From positions 1 through 32,823 of the forward strand of contig JAJZTQ010000029.1 of assembly GCA_021848825.1 (NCBI GenBank): a DNA stretch of 32,823 nucleotides, written 5' to 3'. A program made the position numbers and the translations under genes. Of the stretch, positions 5,238 to 32,166 are shown piece by piece. The DNA comes from Pseudomonadota bacterium. GTDB lineage: Bacteria; Pseudomonadota; Gammaproteobacteria; Burkholderiales; JABEVD01. Numbering within the stretch: the stretch's first letter is position 1; the number at the start of each line of letters is the position of its first letter. The notes beneath the pieces are model-generated. The model was not told the origin of the DNA. It saw nothing but the letters and a program-made list of their open reading frames with translations, and did no database searches.

Positions 5238-5240
5238 TTA

Positions 5241-5417
5241 TCCCCTGCGGTGTTCGACGAGGCCATTCATTCCTTGAACCAATAACTTGGCATTAAGGCC
5301 GCCGACCATCGAGCCGCTGTTGTGCCTGTTCCCTGCGAACGGACCTGATGCGGCGGGAAGGCTGCCGACTTGAACCTCAGGTTCGGGATGCCCGGTCTTG
5401 ACGGCATTCGCGGGGGA
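5241..5417 (+). ncRNA. ssrS: 6S RNA
   Basis: A 177-base gene-free stretch directly after zapA matches 6S RNA. The 5' end TCCCCTGCGGTGTTCG pairs with the 3' end CATTCGCGGGGGA to form the closing stem. The interior includes the CCTTGAACC and TTGAACCTCAGGTTCGG segments that recall E. coli 6S and its long bulged hairpin. 6S RNA binds the sigma-70 holoenzyme as an open-promoter mimic and lowers transcription in stationary phase. Position after zapA is conserved. The usual ygfA (5-formyl-THF cyclo-ligase) neighbour is replaced by a convergent ppk1. The ends are estimated from the terminal stem. Confidence 0.88.
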
Positions 5418-5419
5418 CC

Positions 5420-7483
5420 CTACATCGCTTTTTTCGCCGAAAGAAGCTCCGCCTGCGCGCAACGGATCTTGCTCCTTGCGCGCTTCCTGTGGTACCTGCC
5501 TTCCAGGTCCATCTCCCAAGCCTGGCAGTTGTCGCTGAGGTAGGGCTTGAGCCCTTCCTGGATCACTCTTCTCTTGAGTTTCGGATCGAGTACCGGGAAG
5601 CATATCTCGATTCTTCTGAAGAAATTCCTGTCCATCCAGTCTGCGCTCGAAAGATAAACCTTCTGCGCTCCCTTGAAATAGAAGATCCGGCTGTGCTCGA
5701 GGAATCGCCCGATGATGGATCTGACCCTGATGTTTTCGGATAAGCCGGGAATGCCGGGGCGAAGCGCGCAGACTCCGCGCACGATGAGATCGATTTTCAC
5801 GCCGGCATTCGATGCGTCATAAAGCGCCTGGATGATGCCGGGCTCCAGAAGCGCATTCATCTTCGCGACGATGCCAGAGGGCAGGCCGGCGGCGGCATTG
5901 TCCGCTTCCTGACGGATGGCCTGAAGGATCTGGGAATGAAGCGAGAAAGGGGACTGCCAGAGATGCATGAGCTTTCCTGCCCGTCCGAGCCCGGTGAGCT
6001 GGATGAAGACGTCGTTCACGTCGGAGCAGATTTCCTCGTTGCAGGTGAAGAGCCCGAAATCGGTATAGAGCTTGGTCGTCCTCGGGTGATAGTTTCCGGT
6101 GCCGAGATGAACGTAGCGTCTCAACCTGTCGCCTTCCCGCCTCACCACCATCGACATCTTGGCATGAGTCTTGTGCCCGACCACCCCGTATACGACATGC
6201 GCGCCAGCTTCTTCGAGTTTCGCCGCCCAGTTGATGTTGGCTTCCTCGTCGAATCGGGCGAGCAGCTCCACCACGACAGTGACTTCCTTTCCCCGCTGCG
6301 CGGCCGCGATCAGGGATTCCATGATGACGGAATCCGTCCCCGTCCTGTAGACCGTCTGCTTGATGACGATGACCTGGGGGTCGCTCGCCGCCTGCTGGAT
6401 GAACCTGATCACGGGCTGGAATGATTCGTAGGGATGGTGCATCAGGACGTCGCCCTTCCTGATGACCTGGAAAATGCTTCCAGCCTTTTTCTGGAAGGCC
6501 GAAGGCATGCCGGGGATGAACTGGGGGAACTTGAGATCGGGTCTTTCGACCTTTTCCGGAATCTGCATCAGTCTGGCGAGATTGACAGGCCCCTTGACCC
6601 GGTAGAGGTCTTCCTGCCCCAGGCCGAATTGCTGGAGGAGGAAATTCGCCATGGCTTCCGAACAGTTTTCCGCGATTTCGAGCCTGACCGCATTGCCGAA
6701 ATGGCGCTGAGGCAATTCTCCCTGAAGCGCAATTCTGAGGTTCTTGACTTCCTCCTCGTCGACGAAAAGGTCGCTGTTCCTCGTCACCCTGAACTGCGAA
6801 CATTGCAGCACGGTCATGCCCACGAAAAGCTCCTCGACATGGGCATGCAAGATGGAGGAGAGGAAAACGAAACCGTATTCGCTTTCGCAGACCGATTCGG
6901 GAAGCTGGATCACCCTCGGCAATACCCTGGGCGCCTGGACGATGGCCGTTCCGGAACTCCTGCCGAAGGCGTCGCGGCCTTCGAGTTCTATCGCGAAATT
7001 GAGGCTCTTGTTCAGTACCCTCGGGAAGGGATGGGAAGGATCGAGCCCTATCGGCGTGAGGACGGGCATCAGTTCCCTGAAAAAGAAGGCTCTTATCCAC
7101 TCCTTCTGGGGCTCCGTCCAGTCGCTTCTCTTGATGAATCTGATGCCCTGACCCGCAAGCTGGGGAAGGATGTCTTCGTTGAGAAGCTGGTATTGGCGCG
7201 AGACGAGTTCGTGCGATCTTTCGGAGACCAGCCTGAATACCGTCTTCGGGTTCATTCCGTCCGGGCCTGTGGAAGGCGAGCCCAGATTGATCTGTTCCTT
7301 GAGCCCCGCCACCCTGATTTCGAAGAATTCGTCCAGATTTCCGCTGACGATGCAGAGGTATCTCAGCCGCTCAAGAAGGGGGATCGAAACATCTTCGGCC
7401 TGGGCGAGCACACGCCTGTTGAATTCGAGCTGACCCAGTTCCCTGTTGAGGTAATGCTGCTGCGACGAAATCCTGTCCGCCAT
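5420..7483 (-). CDS. ppk1: polyphosphate kinase 1
   Basis: This 687-aa enzyme reversibly makes polyphosphate from ATP. The N-terminal domain begins HYLNRELGQLEFNRRVLAQA and LSG-type NLDEFFEIRVAGL. The two catalytic-histidine regions of the phospholipase-D-like halves are visible: VVGHKTHAKMSMVVR (the autophosphorylated His of the family) and RFLEHSRIFYFKG. SSADWMDRNFFRRIE and the C-terminal arm follow. The frame is open for 26 more codons upstream, but the ATG at 7483 matches family N-termini and follows the yggX stop by one base. The gene ends two bases from 6S RNA on the other strand, and no terminator is visible there. Confidence 0.95.
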   Translation of the reverse strand: MADRISSQQHYLNRELGQLEFNRRVLAQAEDVSIPLLERLRYLCIVSGNLDEFFEIRVAGLKEQINLGSPSTGPDGMNPKTVFRLVSERSHELVSRQYQLLNEDILPQLAGQGIRFIKRSDWTEPQKEWIRAFFFRELMPVLTPIGLDPSHPFPRVLNKSLNFAIELEGRDAFGRSSGTAIVQAPRVLPRVIQLPESVCESEYGFVFLSSILHAHVEELFVGMTVLQCSQFRVTRNSDLFVDEEEVKNLRIALQGELPQRHFGNAVRLEIAENCSEAMANFLLQQFGLGQEDLYRVKGPVNLARLMQIPEKVERPDLKFPQFIPGMPSAFQKKAGSIFQVIRKGDVLMHHPYESFQPVIRFIQQAASDPQVIVIKQTVYRTGTDSVIMESLIAAAQRGKEVTVVVELLARFDEEANINWAAKLEEAGAHVVYGVVGHKTHAKMSMVVRREGDRLRRYVHLGTGNYHPRTTKLYTDFGLFTCNEEICSDVNDVFIQLTGLGRAGKLMHLWQSPFSLHSQILQAIRQEADNAAAGLPSGIVAKMNALLEPGIIQALYDASNAGVKIDLIVRGVCALRPGIPGLSENIRVRSIIGRFLEHSRIFYFKGAQKVYLSSADWMDRNFFRRIEICFPVLDPKLKRRVIQEGLKPYLSDNCQAWEMDLEGRYHRKRARSKIRCAQAELLSAKKAM

Positions 7484-9930: not shown

Positions 9931-9950
9931 GATTTCTCCATTCGGTTAAG

Positions 9951-10060
9951 AATGGGCGCCGTTCCAGATTGATCATCCCTCCCCAAGCCTGGCCTCTCAC
10001 CCATTTCATTACCGACTGAGCTAAATGAAATGGGTGAGGGGTCGCAGCGCCCCTCGGGGA
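9951..10060 (-). promoter_or_regulatory. SAH riboswitch
   Basis: On the minus strand the ahcY leader carries the conserved SAH-riboswitch blocks in order: CCCCGAGGGGCGCTGCGACC, a variable hairpin ACCCATTTCAT/ATGAAATGGGT, GGGTGAGAGGCCAGGCTTGG, and the 3' strand GAACGGCGCCCATTC, which pairs back to GGGCGC as a pseudoknot helix. This family binds S-adenosylhomocysteine over SAM and is generally an ON switch. The structure begins about 10 bases after the metK stop and ends about 20 bases before the ahcY ATG. Confidence 0.93.
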
Positions 10061-10069
10061 GAAAGGTTT

Positions 10070-13037: not shown

Positions 13038-13112
13038 AGGCGGTTAGCTCAGTGGTAGAGCATTGCCTTCACACGGCAAGGGTCGTTGGTTCGAATCCAA
13101 TACCGCCTACCA
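13038..13112 (+). tRNA. tRNA-Val (anticodon CAC)
   Basis: It forms a full cloverleaf: acceptor AGGCGGT/ACCGCCT with all seven pairs matched, D-arm GCTC/GAGC, anticodon stem TTGCC/GGCAA with loop TTCACAC (anticodon CAC), a T-arm with TTCGAAT loop, discriminator A and encoded CCA. The first pair is A-U instead of G-C. The 3' 44 bases overlap the end of the protein gene on the opposite strand. Confidence 0.94.
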
Positions 13113-29736: not shown

Positions 29737-31491
29737 ATGCTGAGCTTTTTGACGGCCTGGATGAACATGTATTTCAGGGTGATGCTGATTTTCCTTTTTG
29801 CAACGATGGCGAGGGCGGAAAGTTATGTCGCGCCTGAACCCTCGACTGGTCTGGCGAAGCTCGCGCATGCGCAGGGCAAGCATGGCATGGTTGCCGCAGC
29901 GAATCCCTATGCAGCAAGGGCTGCGATGACGATGCTGCAGAAGGGCGGCAATGCAGTCGATGCGGCGATCGCAGCCCAGATGGTTCTGAATCTCGTCGAA
30001 CCGCAATCCTCGGGCATAGGGGGAGGCGCATTCCTGCTTTATTATTCCGGGGAAACAGGAAACATTGTTGCATTCGACGGCAGGGAAACGGCGCCTGCTG
30101 CAGACAATCCTTCTCTTTTCCTGGACTCGAAAGGGGCGCCGCTGAAGTTCTACGATGCAGTCATAGGCGGAAAATCGGTAGGCGTTCCCGGCACATTGCG
30201 CATGCTTGAAGCTGCGCACAAGAAATACGGCAGGCTTCCCTGGGCGGCACTTTTCATGCCTGCCATCGATCTGTGCGAAAAGGGCTTCCGGGTTTCTCCG
30301 AGGCTTCACATGCTCCTTGAAAAGGACAAATTTCTGAGGCTCGATGCAAAAGCGAATGCTTACTTTTATCGTCAAGACGGAAAGGCGAAAAAGGCAGGAG
30401 AGATCCTGAAGAATCCCGATCTTGCCCGTGTCTTCCGGGGGATCGCCGAGAACGGCGCCGATGCCTTCTACAGGGGAAGCATCGCCGACGACATCGTGAA
30501 TGCGGTGAGGAATCGGAAAAAAAATCCCGGATACATGACGCTCTCCGATCTGGAAGGCTATCGTGCGATGGAGAGAAGGCCATTGTGCGGAAATTACAGG
30601 AACTACAAAATATGCGGCATACCTCCCCCCAGTTCGGGCGGGGAGACGGTTCTCCAGATCATGGGCATCATCTCGAATTTCGACCTGGGGGAAAAACCGG
30701 AATCCGCCGAATCGGTTCATATCGTCAGTGAAGCGGAAAGGCTTGCATTCGCTGACAGGGACAGATATCTGGCCGACCCCGATTTTTCGCCCATTCCGCT
30801 CAGCGGCCTGCTCGATCCTGCCTACGTCAAGAGCCGTGCCATGCTGATAGACAGGCATGCAGCGATGGAGAGGGTCATGCCGGGAAATCCGCCGGGGTCC
30901 GAAACCGTAAAGACCTCAGGTGCTCGAGCGATGGAATTCCATTCGACCAGCCATCTTTCCATCGTGGACAGGGACGGGAATGCAGTTTCGATGACGACTT
31001 CCATCGAGGACGGATTCGGAAGCAGGGTGATGGTGGACGGATTTCTTCTCAACAACGAACTGACCGATTTCTCCTTCCTTCCCGAAAAGGATGGCATGCC
31101 GGTGGCGAACAGGGTCGAGGCAGGAAAGCGCCCCCGGAGCTCGATGTCTCCGACCTTCGTATTCGATGAGAAGGGCAGGCTTTATGCTGTCCTTGGTTCA
31201 CCGGGCGGTCCCTTCATCATCGACATCGTGGCCAAAACCCTTGTTGCGCTGCTCTACTGGCACATGAGCATGGCTGATTCCATCGCCCTTCCCAATTTCG
31301 GAAGCATAGGTGGGCCGCTTCTCCTGGAGAGCGATACGCCGGTGGTTCTGCTGCAGCCTGCTCTGGAAAGGATGGGCCATCCTGTCATGACAAGGGAGCT
31401 CAACAGCGGTGTTCACGGCATAGAGAGCATGTCCGTCGGATGGGAAGGGGCGGCCGATCCGAGAAGGGAGGGCATCGCGATCGGCTACTAG
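29737..31491 (+). CDS. ggt: gamma-glutamyltransferase
   Basis: This 584-aa periplasmic Ntn-hydrolase cleaves or transfers the gamma-glutamyl group of glutathione. The signal peptide (FRVMLIFLFATMARA) is followed by the conserved MLQKGGNAVDAAIAAQMVLN, then LVEPQSSGIGGGAFLLYY and FDGRETAPAA. Self-cleavage should occur before Thr404 (HSTSHLSIVDRDGNAVS), the new catalytic N-terminus of the small subunit. PRSSMSPTFVF and GSPGGPFIIDIV line the active site. Start codons at 29737, 29761 and 29767 are all possible, and none has a strong ribosome-binding site. The TAG stop shares its last G with the adjacent repeat element. Confidence 0.94.
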   Translation: MLSFLTAWMNMYFRVMLIFLFATMARAESYVAPEPSTGLAKLAHAQGKHGMVAAANPYAARAAMTMLQKGGNAVDAAIAAQMVLNLVEPQSSGIGGGAFLLYYSGETGNIVAFDGRETAPAADNPSLFLDSKGAPLKFYDAVIGGKSVGVPGTLRMLEAAHKKYGRLPWAALFMPAIDLCEKGFRVSPRLHMLLEKDKFLRLDAKANAYFYRQDGKAKKAGEILKNPDLARVFRGIAENGADAFYRGSIADDIVNAVRNRKKNPGYMTLSDLEGYRAMERRPLCGNYRNYKICGIPPPSSGGETVLQIMGIISNFDLGEKPESAESVHIVSEAERLAFADRDRYLADPDFSPIPLSGLLDPAYVKSRAMLIDRHAAMERVMPGNPPGSETVKTSGARAMEFHSTSHLSIVDRDGNAVSMTTSIEDGFGSRVMVDGFLLNNELTDFSFLPEKDGMPVANRVEAGKRPRSSMSPTFVFDEKGRLYAVLGSPGGPFIIDIVAKTLVALLYWHMSMADSIALPNFGSIGGPLLLESDTPVVLLQPALERMGHPVMTRELNSGVHGIESMSVGWEGAADPRREGIAIGY

Positions 31492-31783
31492 GGCGTGTTA
31501 ACTCTATTTTCACATTTGCGACGGCGGTGATTTGGGGGGAGCACATCCGCGAAGCAAGCCGCGCAGTAATGCCAGTCCCTACTAGTGGCTTGCCACAAAG
31601 GAGAGCGCCCAAATCACCCCGTCCCGTACCGCTTGTAAAAAAGATTATTGAGGGTTGGCACTGGAAGGCCGCGTCTACGGTGTTGCAAGACTTGCGAATG
31701 GAATAACCATTCGCTGCGCCTTGCGCCTGGCATCCACGGCCTTCTAGTGCCAACGCAGATGCGAAAATAGAGTTAACACGCCC
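31491..31783 (+). mobile_element. 293-bp non-coding, MITE-like element with nested inverted repeats
   Basis: Perfect 21-bp terminal inverted repeats (31491-31511 and 31763-31783) begin GGGCGTGTTAACTC, and pairing continues to about 30 bp with two mismatches. Inside are two more large inverted repeats. Arm A is GGTGATTTGGG/CCCAAATCACC (31526-31536, 31608-31618), containing GCAAGCC/GGCTTGC. Arm B is TTGGCACT-GAAGGCCG with a 1-mismatch partner (31655-31671, 31737-31753), holding a tip hairpin GCGAATGG/CCATTCGC (31694-31714). There is no transposase. The termini look like those of a DNA transposon, perhaps the IS5 group. No clear target duplication is seen (CTA left, CAA right). Strand is arbitrary. 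Confidence 0.8.
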
Positions 31784-31797
31784 CAATGGGAGGATGA

Positions 31798-32166
31798 ATG
31801 GAAATCAAGACGCTGCTTCTCGCATTGCTCTTCATGGCATCCATAGCCTATGCAATCGGCTATTTTCCCGGGCATCCCCATCTTCTTTCGGTGGGCTCGG
31901 CCCAGATCACGAGCCCGAAGGACGGCGTCTATATCGATGGGGAAGCCAGGAACATGCTCGCCTATGACTTCCATCCCAGCACCAGGGGCAATCATCTCGT
32001 CATTTATGTCGACGACCAGGAACCTGTCATTGTCCGCGAATGGAGGGGAAGCTACCGGCTTCCTCTTCTCGGGATGGGGAAACACCGGATCTGCGTAAAA
32101 GAGGCGAATTCATCGAATGTCCTGACAGGGCTCCAGAAATGCCTCACCGTCACTTCCACCAAATGA
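31798..32166 (+). CDS. exported hypothetical protein (122 aa)
   Basis: A signal peptide (MEIKTLLLALLFMASIAYA) is followed by a compact beta-rich domain: SAQITSPKDGVYIDGEAR, NHLVIYVDDQEPVIVREWRG, YRLPLLGMGKHRICVKEAN and LQKCLTVTSTK. Two cysteines may form a disulfide. The strand pattern resembles an immunoglobulin-like or Ig-like exported domain, but no family is recognised. A GGGAGG ribosome-binding site lies 4-5 bases before the ATG, immediately after the right end of the repeat element. Its original promoter region has therefore been displaced or replaced. Confidence 0.75.
   Translation: MEIKTLLLALLFMASIAYAIGYFPGHPHLLSVGSAQITSPKDGVYIDGEARNMLAYDFHPSTRGNHLVIYVDDQEPVIVREWRGSYRLPLLGMGKHRICVKEANSSNVLTGLQKCLTVTSTK

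Follow-up and report, generated by a model that had tools for sequence, protein, structure and literature searches.

The window, by which we mean the whole 32,823-nt stretch of DNA that was analysed, contains at 31491-31783 a compact, highly paired element of 293 bp, situated between a gamma-glutamyltransferase gene (PF01019) and an ORF of 122 aa that has no Pfam match at E 0.001. Elsewhere, the window carries a 6S RNA, a SAH riboswitch and two tRNA genes, all scoring at or above the Rfam gathering values (Table 1). The structured element had been noticed in a sequence-only reading, and this observation is confirmed. Its terminal inverted repeats, described there as 21 perfect base pairs extending to about 30 bp with two mismatches, match at 28 of 30 positions with the outer 21 perfect. 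The two inner hairpins, placed at 31526-31618 (arm A) and 31655-31753 (arm B), lie close to where a family alignment puts them; arm A and the left end stem both include position 31520.

Table 1. Features of the element and structured RNA matches elsewhere in the window
Feature	Position	Strand	Remarks
Target dinucleotide TA, left border	31489-31490		Forms, with the first G of the element, the TAG stop of the upstream gene
Left terminal inverted repeat, GGGCGTGTTAACTCTATTTTCACATTTGCG	31491-31520	+	28/30 against the right end
Arm A, long imperfect hairpin, the more diverged arm	31520-31623		Family alignment mapped on the window; helices 2-8
Mini-hairpin between the arms	31624-31653		Paired ends CC and GG in 33/33 copies; loop of 26 nt here
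Arm B, hairpin module behind covariance model R1	31654-31754		R1 match 31651-31756
Right terminal inverted repeat	31754-31783	-	28/30 against the left end
Rfam matches elsewhere in the window	5239-5420; 9947-10061; 13038-13109; 7-80	+; -; +; -	At or above gathering score

Folded as DNA, positions 31480-31795 (316 nt) reach -86.8 kcal/mol, against a mean of -49.7 (sd 4.1) for dinucleotide shuffles (z -9.05), and none of 100 such shuffles folds as well. The three-armed fold first proposed is indeed how the window copy looks, but the plan of the family is a four-way junction, in which the ends form the closing stem and the remaining branches are arm A, a CCC...GGG mini-hairpin and arm B. The window copy appears three-armed because the loop of its mini-hairpin takes up 26 nt (31626-31651); other copies of the same end class (class 1) outside the genus have 2-3 letters there. 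The reported absence of an ORF is right in substance, although mechanical ORFs cross the element (31400-31786, minus strand, 128 aa; 31440-31706, plus strand, 88 aa) and the longest stop-to-stop frame within its 293 bp has 97 codons; nothing supports any of these as a gene. The ORF list of the 293 bp thus gives no supported ORF, and hence no DDE transposase coded by the element. The flanks of the window copy are TA on the left and CA on the right, so that its target duplication is imperfect; among aligned copies of its end type, 13 of 18 have TA on both sides. A repeat of this kind is weak evidence for target duplication, because TA...TA is also palindromic.

The sequence-only reading had named further copies and empty sites as support for its view, and both were found. 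Three copies in the genome itself (2.74 Mb, 55 contigs) are full-length, with 100, 90 and 87% identity to the window copy; a truncated one (L004, 1480-1570) keeps the right part alone, with the end AGGCATGTTAACGCTATTTT. Two genomes of the same genus have full copies of 84 and 83% identity, and full copies are also present in other families. Two insertion points are seen uninterrupted in relatives of the same genus. In G004, the same two genes adjoin in the absence of the element, the ggt stop CTACTAG being followed directly by the region where the neighbouring gene starts; in G003, the homologous junction is also without the element, but it has diverged. The other point is that of the copy on contig C53, where the end of the flanking gene reads GCGACTGGATCTA/GGGCGTG in the element's own genome and GCGACTGGATTTAGCCC in G006. 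This gene is found in all eight other genomes of the genus, and its matches in relatives stop between 3 nt before and 6 nt after the element border; the left junction alone is a clean comparison, because the right side is also rearranged. No evidence of present movement was seen among the results.

Both insertions, the only two at stop codons that were checked against relatives, split a TAG stop after TA and restore the stop codon. Over 36 copies (G245, an orthologue of G022, being dropped), the border coincides exactly with the stop of a long ORF in 16, at a limit of 150 codons. Of the TA sites in the flanks, 51 of 1391 (3.7%) are real stops of such ORFs and 374 (26.9%) would end such an ORF if G followed, while 5 of 20 flank CTAG sites are stops of such ORFs. 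Given these counts, the excess of borders at stop codons may be a matter of target choice, and some of the cases may be insertions within genes. An interrupted-ORF analysis was rejected, as leaving out the first G of the element deletes stops and gives false read-through.

The family is broad. Within the order, a BLAST search with a full copy from another of its families (G022) matched 52 of the 399 genomes, in 23 of 159 genera. Alignment A3 comprises 33 full copies, truncated, longer or poorly delimited ones being left out, and 95.2% of the cells in its consensus structure are paired. Two-sided change is present in 66 of the 87 pairs, including every base pair of helix 1, the stem formed by the terminal repeats; compensatory change, which the sequence-only reading would take as support, occurs in both arms. 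The covariation score is 0.553; 500 shuffles average 0.172, and sliding the partners gives 0.074-0.094. These values are no probabilities, because the copies are related and because the alignment that is scored also served to predict the structure, which is thereby favoured over slid versions. The effect is still large, in the ends as well as in both arms. The proposed selection on an ordered interior agrees with the interior being more conserved than the ends: among the 56 columns of the end stem not one is invariant (entropy <0.2), compared with 21 of 101 in arm A (16/64 paired, 5/37 unpaired), 26 of 100 in arm B (15/50 paired, 11/50 unpaired) and 4 of 4 paired in the mini-hairpin. Arm B has a T-G pair at columns 202/256 in all 33 copies.

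A covariance model of arm B alone (R1, 28 sequences) scores arm B of the window at 105.5 bits, the window copy being one of its training sequences. Over a phylum sample, with at most nine candidates scored per genome and rough E-values, R1 is matched in 57 of 398 genomes and 39 of 213 genera; 10 of these genomes belong to the order, 20 lie elsewhere in the class and 27 in other classes. In 25 control loci (90 kb, including several IS5-family elements), R1 has zero matches up to E = 1. Matches in 20 chosen genomes range from 0 (G002, G005) to 53 (G052), with 15 in the own genome, and total 296 arm matches of many end types, some elements being counted twice. From 19 distant loci, 18 were examined, and 17 of them have an enclosing inverted repeat with a score of at least 15, measuring 253-285 bp overall, whereas 300 random placements score at most 12; L214 alone fails this test. 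Named carriers, by R1 matches, include plasmids of Azotobacter chroococcum and Pseudomonas aeruginosa PA83. When named genomes were scanned for the pattern, 13 stretches came up, nine of them from one MAG labelled 'Burkholderiales bacterium'. With the window copy as query, nothing was found in plasmid and phage collections, and relatives and end-only queries were needed. Scans of viral contigs gave one locus in one scan and none in the other; a viral contig (L164, 1-192, IMG/VR) bears an apparent partial element with CCCTTCGGG, an arm and the end AATTAGTGTTAACAGGCCC. A stretch of a Catenovulum plasmid (L169) is member-like by eye and has matching ends, but R1 does not match it and it was not counted. 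Taken as a whole, the element belongs to a large and apparently undescribed superfamily.

The two arms are inverted copies of one module of about 105 nt. R1 detects a second arm, adjacent and on the opposite strand, in 14 of the 19 distant loci; when applied to 14 sources it matches nine, with a second opposite-strand arm in five of the nine, and leaves five without a match. When arm A is compared with reverse-complemented arm B, 13 of 33 copies reach z of at least 2.6, whereas in direct orientation no copy of the 33 exceeds z 0.8. The likeness is uneven, being seen in 2 of 18 class 1 copies (the window copy, z 4.1, and that of G003) and in 11 of the 15 others; since only these two reach the threshold, the common origin of the arms in most class 1 copies is taken from their relatives.

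While the core stays, the ends differ. Distinct end types among the copies include GGGCGTGTTAAC..., GGGCTCGTTAATGAATAA..., GAGCCTATTTCAGTAGATTTC..., GGGCCTGTTAACACTTG... and GGCGTCGAGAAACAATAA..., along with others, and in the own genome GGAACCACTGATTTATTCCC and GGAAGCACTGATTAATTCC are examples of the ends of a second subfamily. Comparing end class 1 with end class 2 gives an identity of 42% for the ends and 68% for the cores; within class 1 the values are 80% and 77%. The same is seen inside a single genome, G022, where one element of each class gives 38% for the ends and 74% for the cores. Since different ends are found on related cores, the core persists longer than any given pair of ends. 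There are also remnants that have lost the arms and consist only of the two adjoining ends, in forms of about 46-50 bp and of 27 bp (G186, G245, G382); these armless remnants are what hairpin-prone DNA might leave. Such remnant loci are L106, L110, L111, L107, L109 (~500) and L083 (~1500), the 27-bp forms reading GGGCGTGTTAACACTAATTTCACGCCC, and L112 and L113 hold GGGCGTGTTAACACGCC forms of 17-18 bp. In the single-contig genome G186, the end pattern matches 12 times on the forward and 4 times on the reverse strand, several of the matches being 27-bp forms.

A partner transposase with the same GGGCGTGTTAACTC ends, as envisaged in the sequence-only reading, was not found; among the matches listed, the pairs of these ends in 17 genomes are short. 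Likewise, pairs of second-type ends include none of IS size among the matches listed (8 genomes). The own genome has zero matches to the models PF01609 and NF033580, and among 39 genomes, mostly bearers of the element, 24 are without an NF033580 match at E 0.001. The enzyme may have been lost, may belong to another model, or may have come and gone.

Two end-only queries of the plasmid collection found nothing, and the end of the second subfamily matched 10 plasmid records at E 0.5-6; at such values the matches prove nothing alone and count for what adjoins them, which in all three records inspected is a transposase gene following the end. Burkholderia vietnamiensis G4 has two inverted transposase genes enclosed by outer ends GGAACCACTGATTTATTCC, each of these ends flanked externally by CTAG, and a 1.2-kb element of Marinobacter has the ends GGAAACACTGAT/GGAAGCGCTGAT with CTAG on both sides; their proteins match NF033581 (IS5) at 1.6e-107 and 5.2e-100, respectively. 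The end of the Azotobacter element, used as query, matched 17 records, and two of the five inspected have an IS5 gene at the end. An Aeromonas caviae element has ends on both sides, TA flanks and a protein matching NF033580 (IS5) at 1.2e-79, and a Paracoccus match (L166) adjoins an IS5 gene, its second end not being found. The Azotobacter-type end belongs to a small element in the P. aeruginosa record and to a doubtful one in the Catenovulum record, and a Halomonas end match (L165), with neither transposase nor second end, was set aside. The end of the G373 element matched two records. In the Paraburkholderia phymatum record, it lies next to transposase-like frames judged IS5-like by eye; a second end was not found, and the end seen, GGGTCTGTTCACACTATTT, is the closest to those of the window copy. 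The Allochromatium match (L171) has no transposase nearby and no second end and was rejected; it lies on pALVIN01 of Allochromatium vinosum (~1900-2330), between cas1 and apparent CRISPR repeats. G274 and G216 contain 1.17-kb elements with the ends AGGAAGCCCTGAACAAGTC and TAGGGAACCCCTGAACAAGT, which resemble those of small elements in G007 and end matches in G008; the proteins of the 1.17-kb elements match NF033580, but below the cut-off of that model. At the level of sequence, then, some ends of sister subfamilies resemble the ends of IS5 insertion sequences. In G287 (L195, ~380-690), an element with the ends GGGCTCGTTAATGAATAACC is inserted at the border of an IS5-type IS with the ends CTAGATAGTGTCGTCACG.

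Several explanations compete for the conserved fold. The structure could matter as RNA, being transcribed with its neighbours so that the arms serve as a processing site, a stabiliser or a small RNA at gene ends. The strength of the fold, the CCC-TTCG-GG type of mini-hairpin in some aligned copies and the borders at long-ORF stops would suit this role, but there is no Rfam match, and 31400-31900 contains zero promoter- or terminator-like sites. Moreover, one functional transcript should favour G-U over A-C exceptions throughout, whereas the non-Watson-Crick counts (G-U against A-C) are 33/17 in the end stem, 24/13 in arm A and 13/21, reversed, in arm B. We therefore lean to a role at the level of DNA; a carried RNA, one of the options first proposed, is left without a consistent strand signature and seems quite unlikely; the other two, mobile single-stranded DNA or a protein-bound cruciform, may apply. 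The core may well act at the DNA level, to which the lack of a consistent G-U excess points weakly.

The covariation might instead be a by-product of repair. Long inverted repeats undergo templated correction, in which one arm is copied from its partner, and on this account the core would be functionless and the element a MITE of the ordinary kind whose interior is palindromic. Covariation is also seen in the ends, which have to match one another, and the armless remnants exist. Such correction would, however, preserve neither the universal T-G pair of arm B nor unpaired letters; of the 87 unpaired columns in the arms, 16 are invariant, compared with none in the end stem. For this reason we consider repair an unlikely explanation. 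The hairpin modules could also be what a hairpin-recognising enzyme acts on, for instance a REP-associated Y1 transposase, with the end repeats being secondary. In favour of this, the core is more conserved than its ends, and inverted pairs of hairpin modules recall REPINs as presented in part of PMC3116915. Against this, left and right ends still correspond to each other in 17 of the 18 distant loci, and the borders lie exactly at the ends, as for DDE transposases, which makes the Y1 account very improbable.

The element has the features of a MITE, since it is short and without a transposase gene, has terminal inverted repeats, and occurs in dispersed copies with uninterrupted sites. The sequence-only reading set it apart from ordinary MITEs; its anatomy is MITE-like, however, so that calling it an unusual MITE does it more justice than denying that it is one. 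What is apparently undescribed is the duplicated conserved core together with exchangeable ends. The statement that no described family has this layout holds for Rfam, which matches neither the element nor 12 relative loci (one sub-threshold match, 14.2 against a cut-off of 51.3), and for the open-access full text covered, subscription papers and ISfinder being outside the scope; the parts consulted of PMC10969869, PMC2229807, PMC4666352, PMC2718517 (repeat families of P. fluorescens), PMC3116915 and PMC3189936 describe no element of the same build. Going by its partial text, PMC3189936 offers a near likeness in MITEPsy1 of Pseudomonas syringae, which is non-coding, has IS5-type ends and the target CTAG or YTAA, and was shown by its authors to move in vivo; it is set apart, by description, by its 100 nt, its 18-nt ends and a structure with no two-arm core described. 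IS5-family insertion sequences (L160, L161, L168; end-bearing frames in L167) share ends with sister subfamilies and have TA or CTAG flanks, but they code for a transposase, and the arm module has no match in the IS5 loci, several of which are among the control loci; no parent IS of the window copy was identified. The excerpt of PMC2229807 describes the CIR repeats of Caulobacter and Brucella, in which two long inverted repeats, equivalent to two arms, are joined by a linker, as distinct from repeats that pair their 5' with their 3' end; judged by this description, the present element combines both. Correia/NEMIS and ERIC/RU-1, in the same excerpt, are also small, with terminal inverted repeats, a terminal TA and highly paired folds, but are described as stem loops of ~100-200 bp with neither arms nor linker. 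REPINs likewise consist of two inverted hairpin units and are non-coding and dispersed; in the part seen of PMC3116915, however, the authors link them to RAYT transposases, while the present element has matched terminal repeats and precise borders. The intrastrand-triplex repeats, with a 37-nt motif in the text available from PMC4666352, are different.

Altogether, the copies, covariation, empty sites and conserved interior of the first interpretation stand, but its exact-end transposase was not found and its carried RNA shows no consistent strand signature. We consider it likely that the element is a non-autonomous, MITE-type DNA transposon, moved by an IS5-family transposase and built of a conserved core with exchangeable ends. 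The transposase would act in trans and recognise ends of ~20-30 bp, and insertion would occur at TA/CTAG-like targets, often stop codons, which the first base of the element would restore. The interior would not be a decayed transposase gene, but a conserved core of two inverted ~105-nt hairpin modules around CCC...GGG, and such cores would take on different ends, several in the style of different IS5 groups. Both mobilisation in trans and the manner of end exchange are inferred. That the core acts as folded DNA, in the form of hairpins or a cruciform, and helps the element to move or to be tolerated, is a reasonable possibility, if somewhat short of an even chance. More tentatively, the core could itself be the evolving unit, a transposase-free chassis found across several classes of one phylum, which repeatedly gains new terminal repeats, so exploits successive IS5-group transposases, and is active at the DNA level in its own mobility; we regard this as conceivable rather than probable.

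The usual view of bacterial MITEs, as in the portions consulted of PMC3189936 and PMC10969869, is of insertion sequences that have shrunk and remain bound to a single parent. In the present family, a structured core is retained through changes of the ends, so that the identity of the element is uncoupled from the enzyme that moves it. The superfamily represents a natural data set on transposase switching by non-autonomous elements and on folded DNA in transposition, and many palindromic repeats that lack annotation may belong to it.
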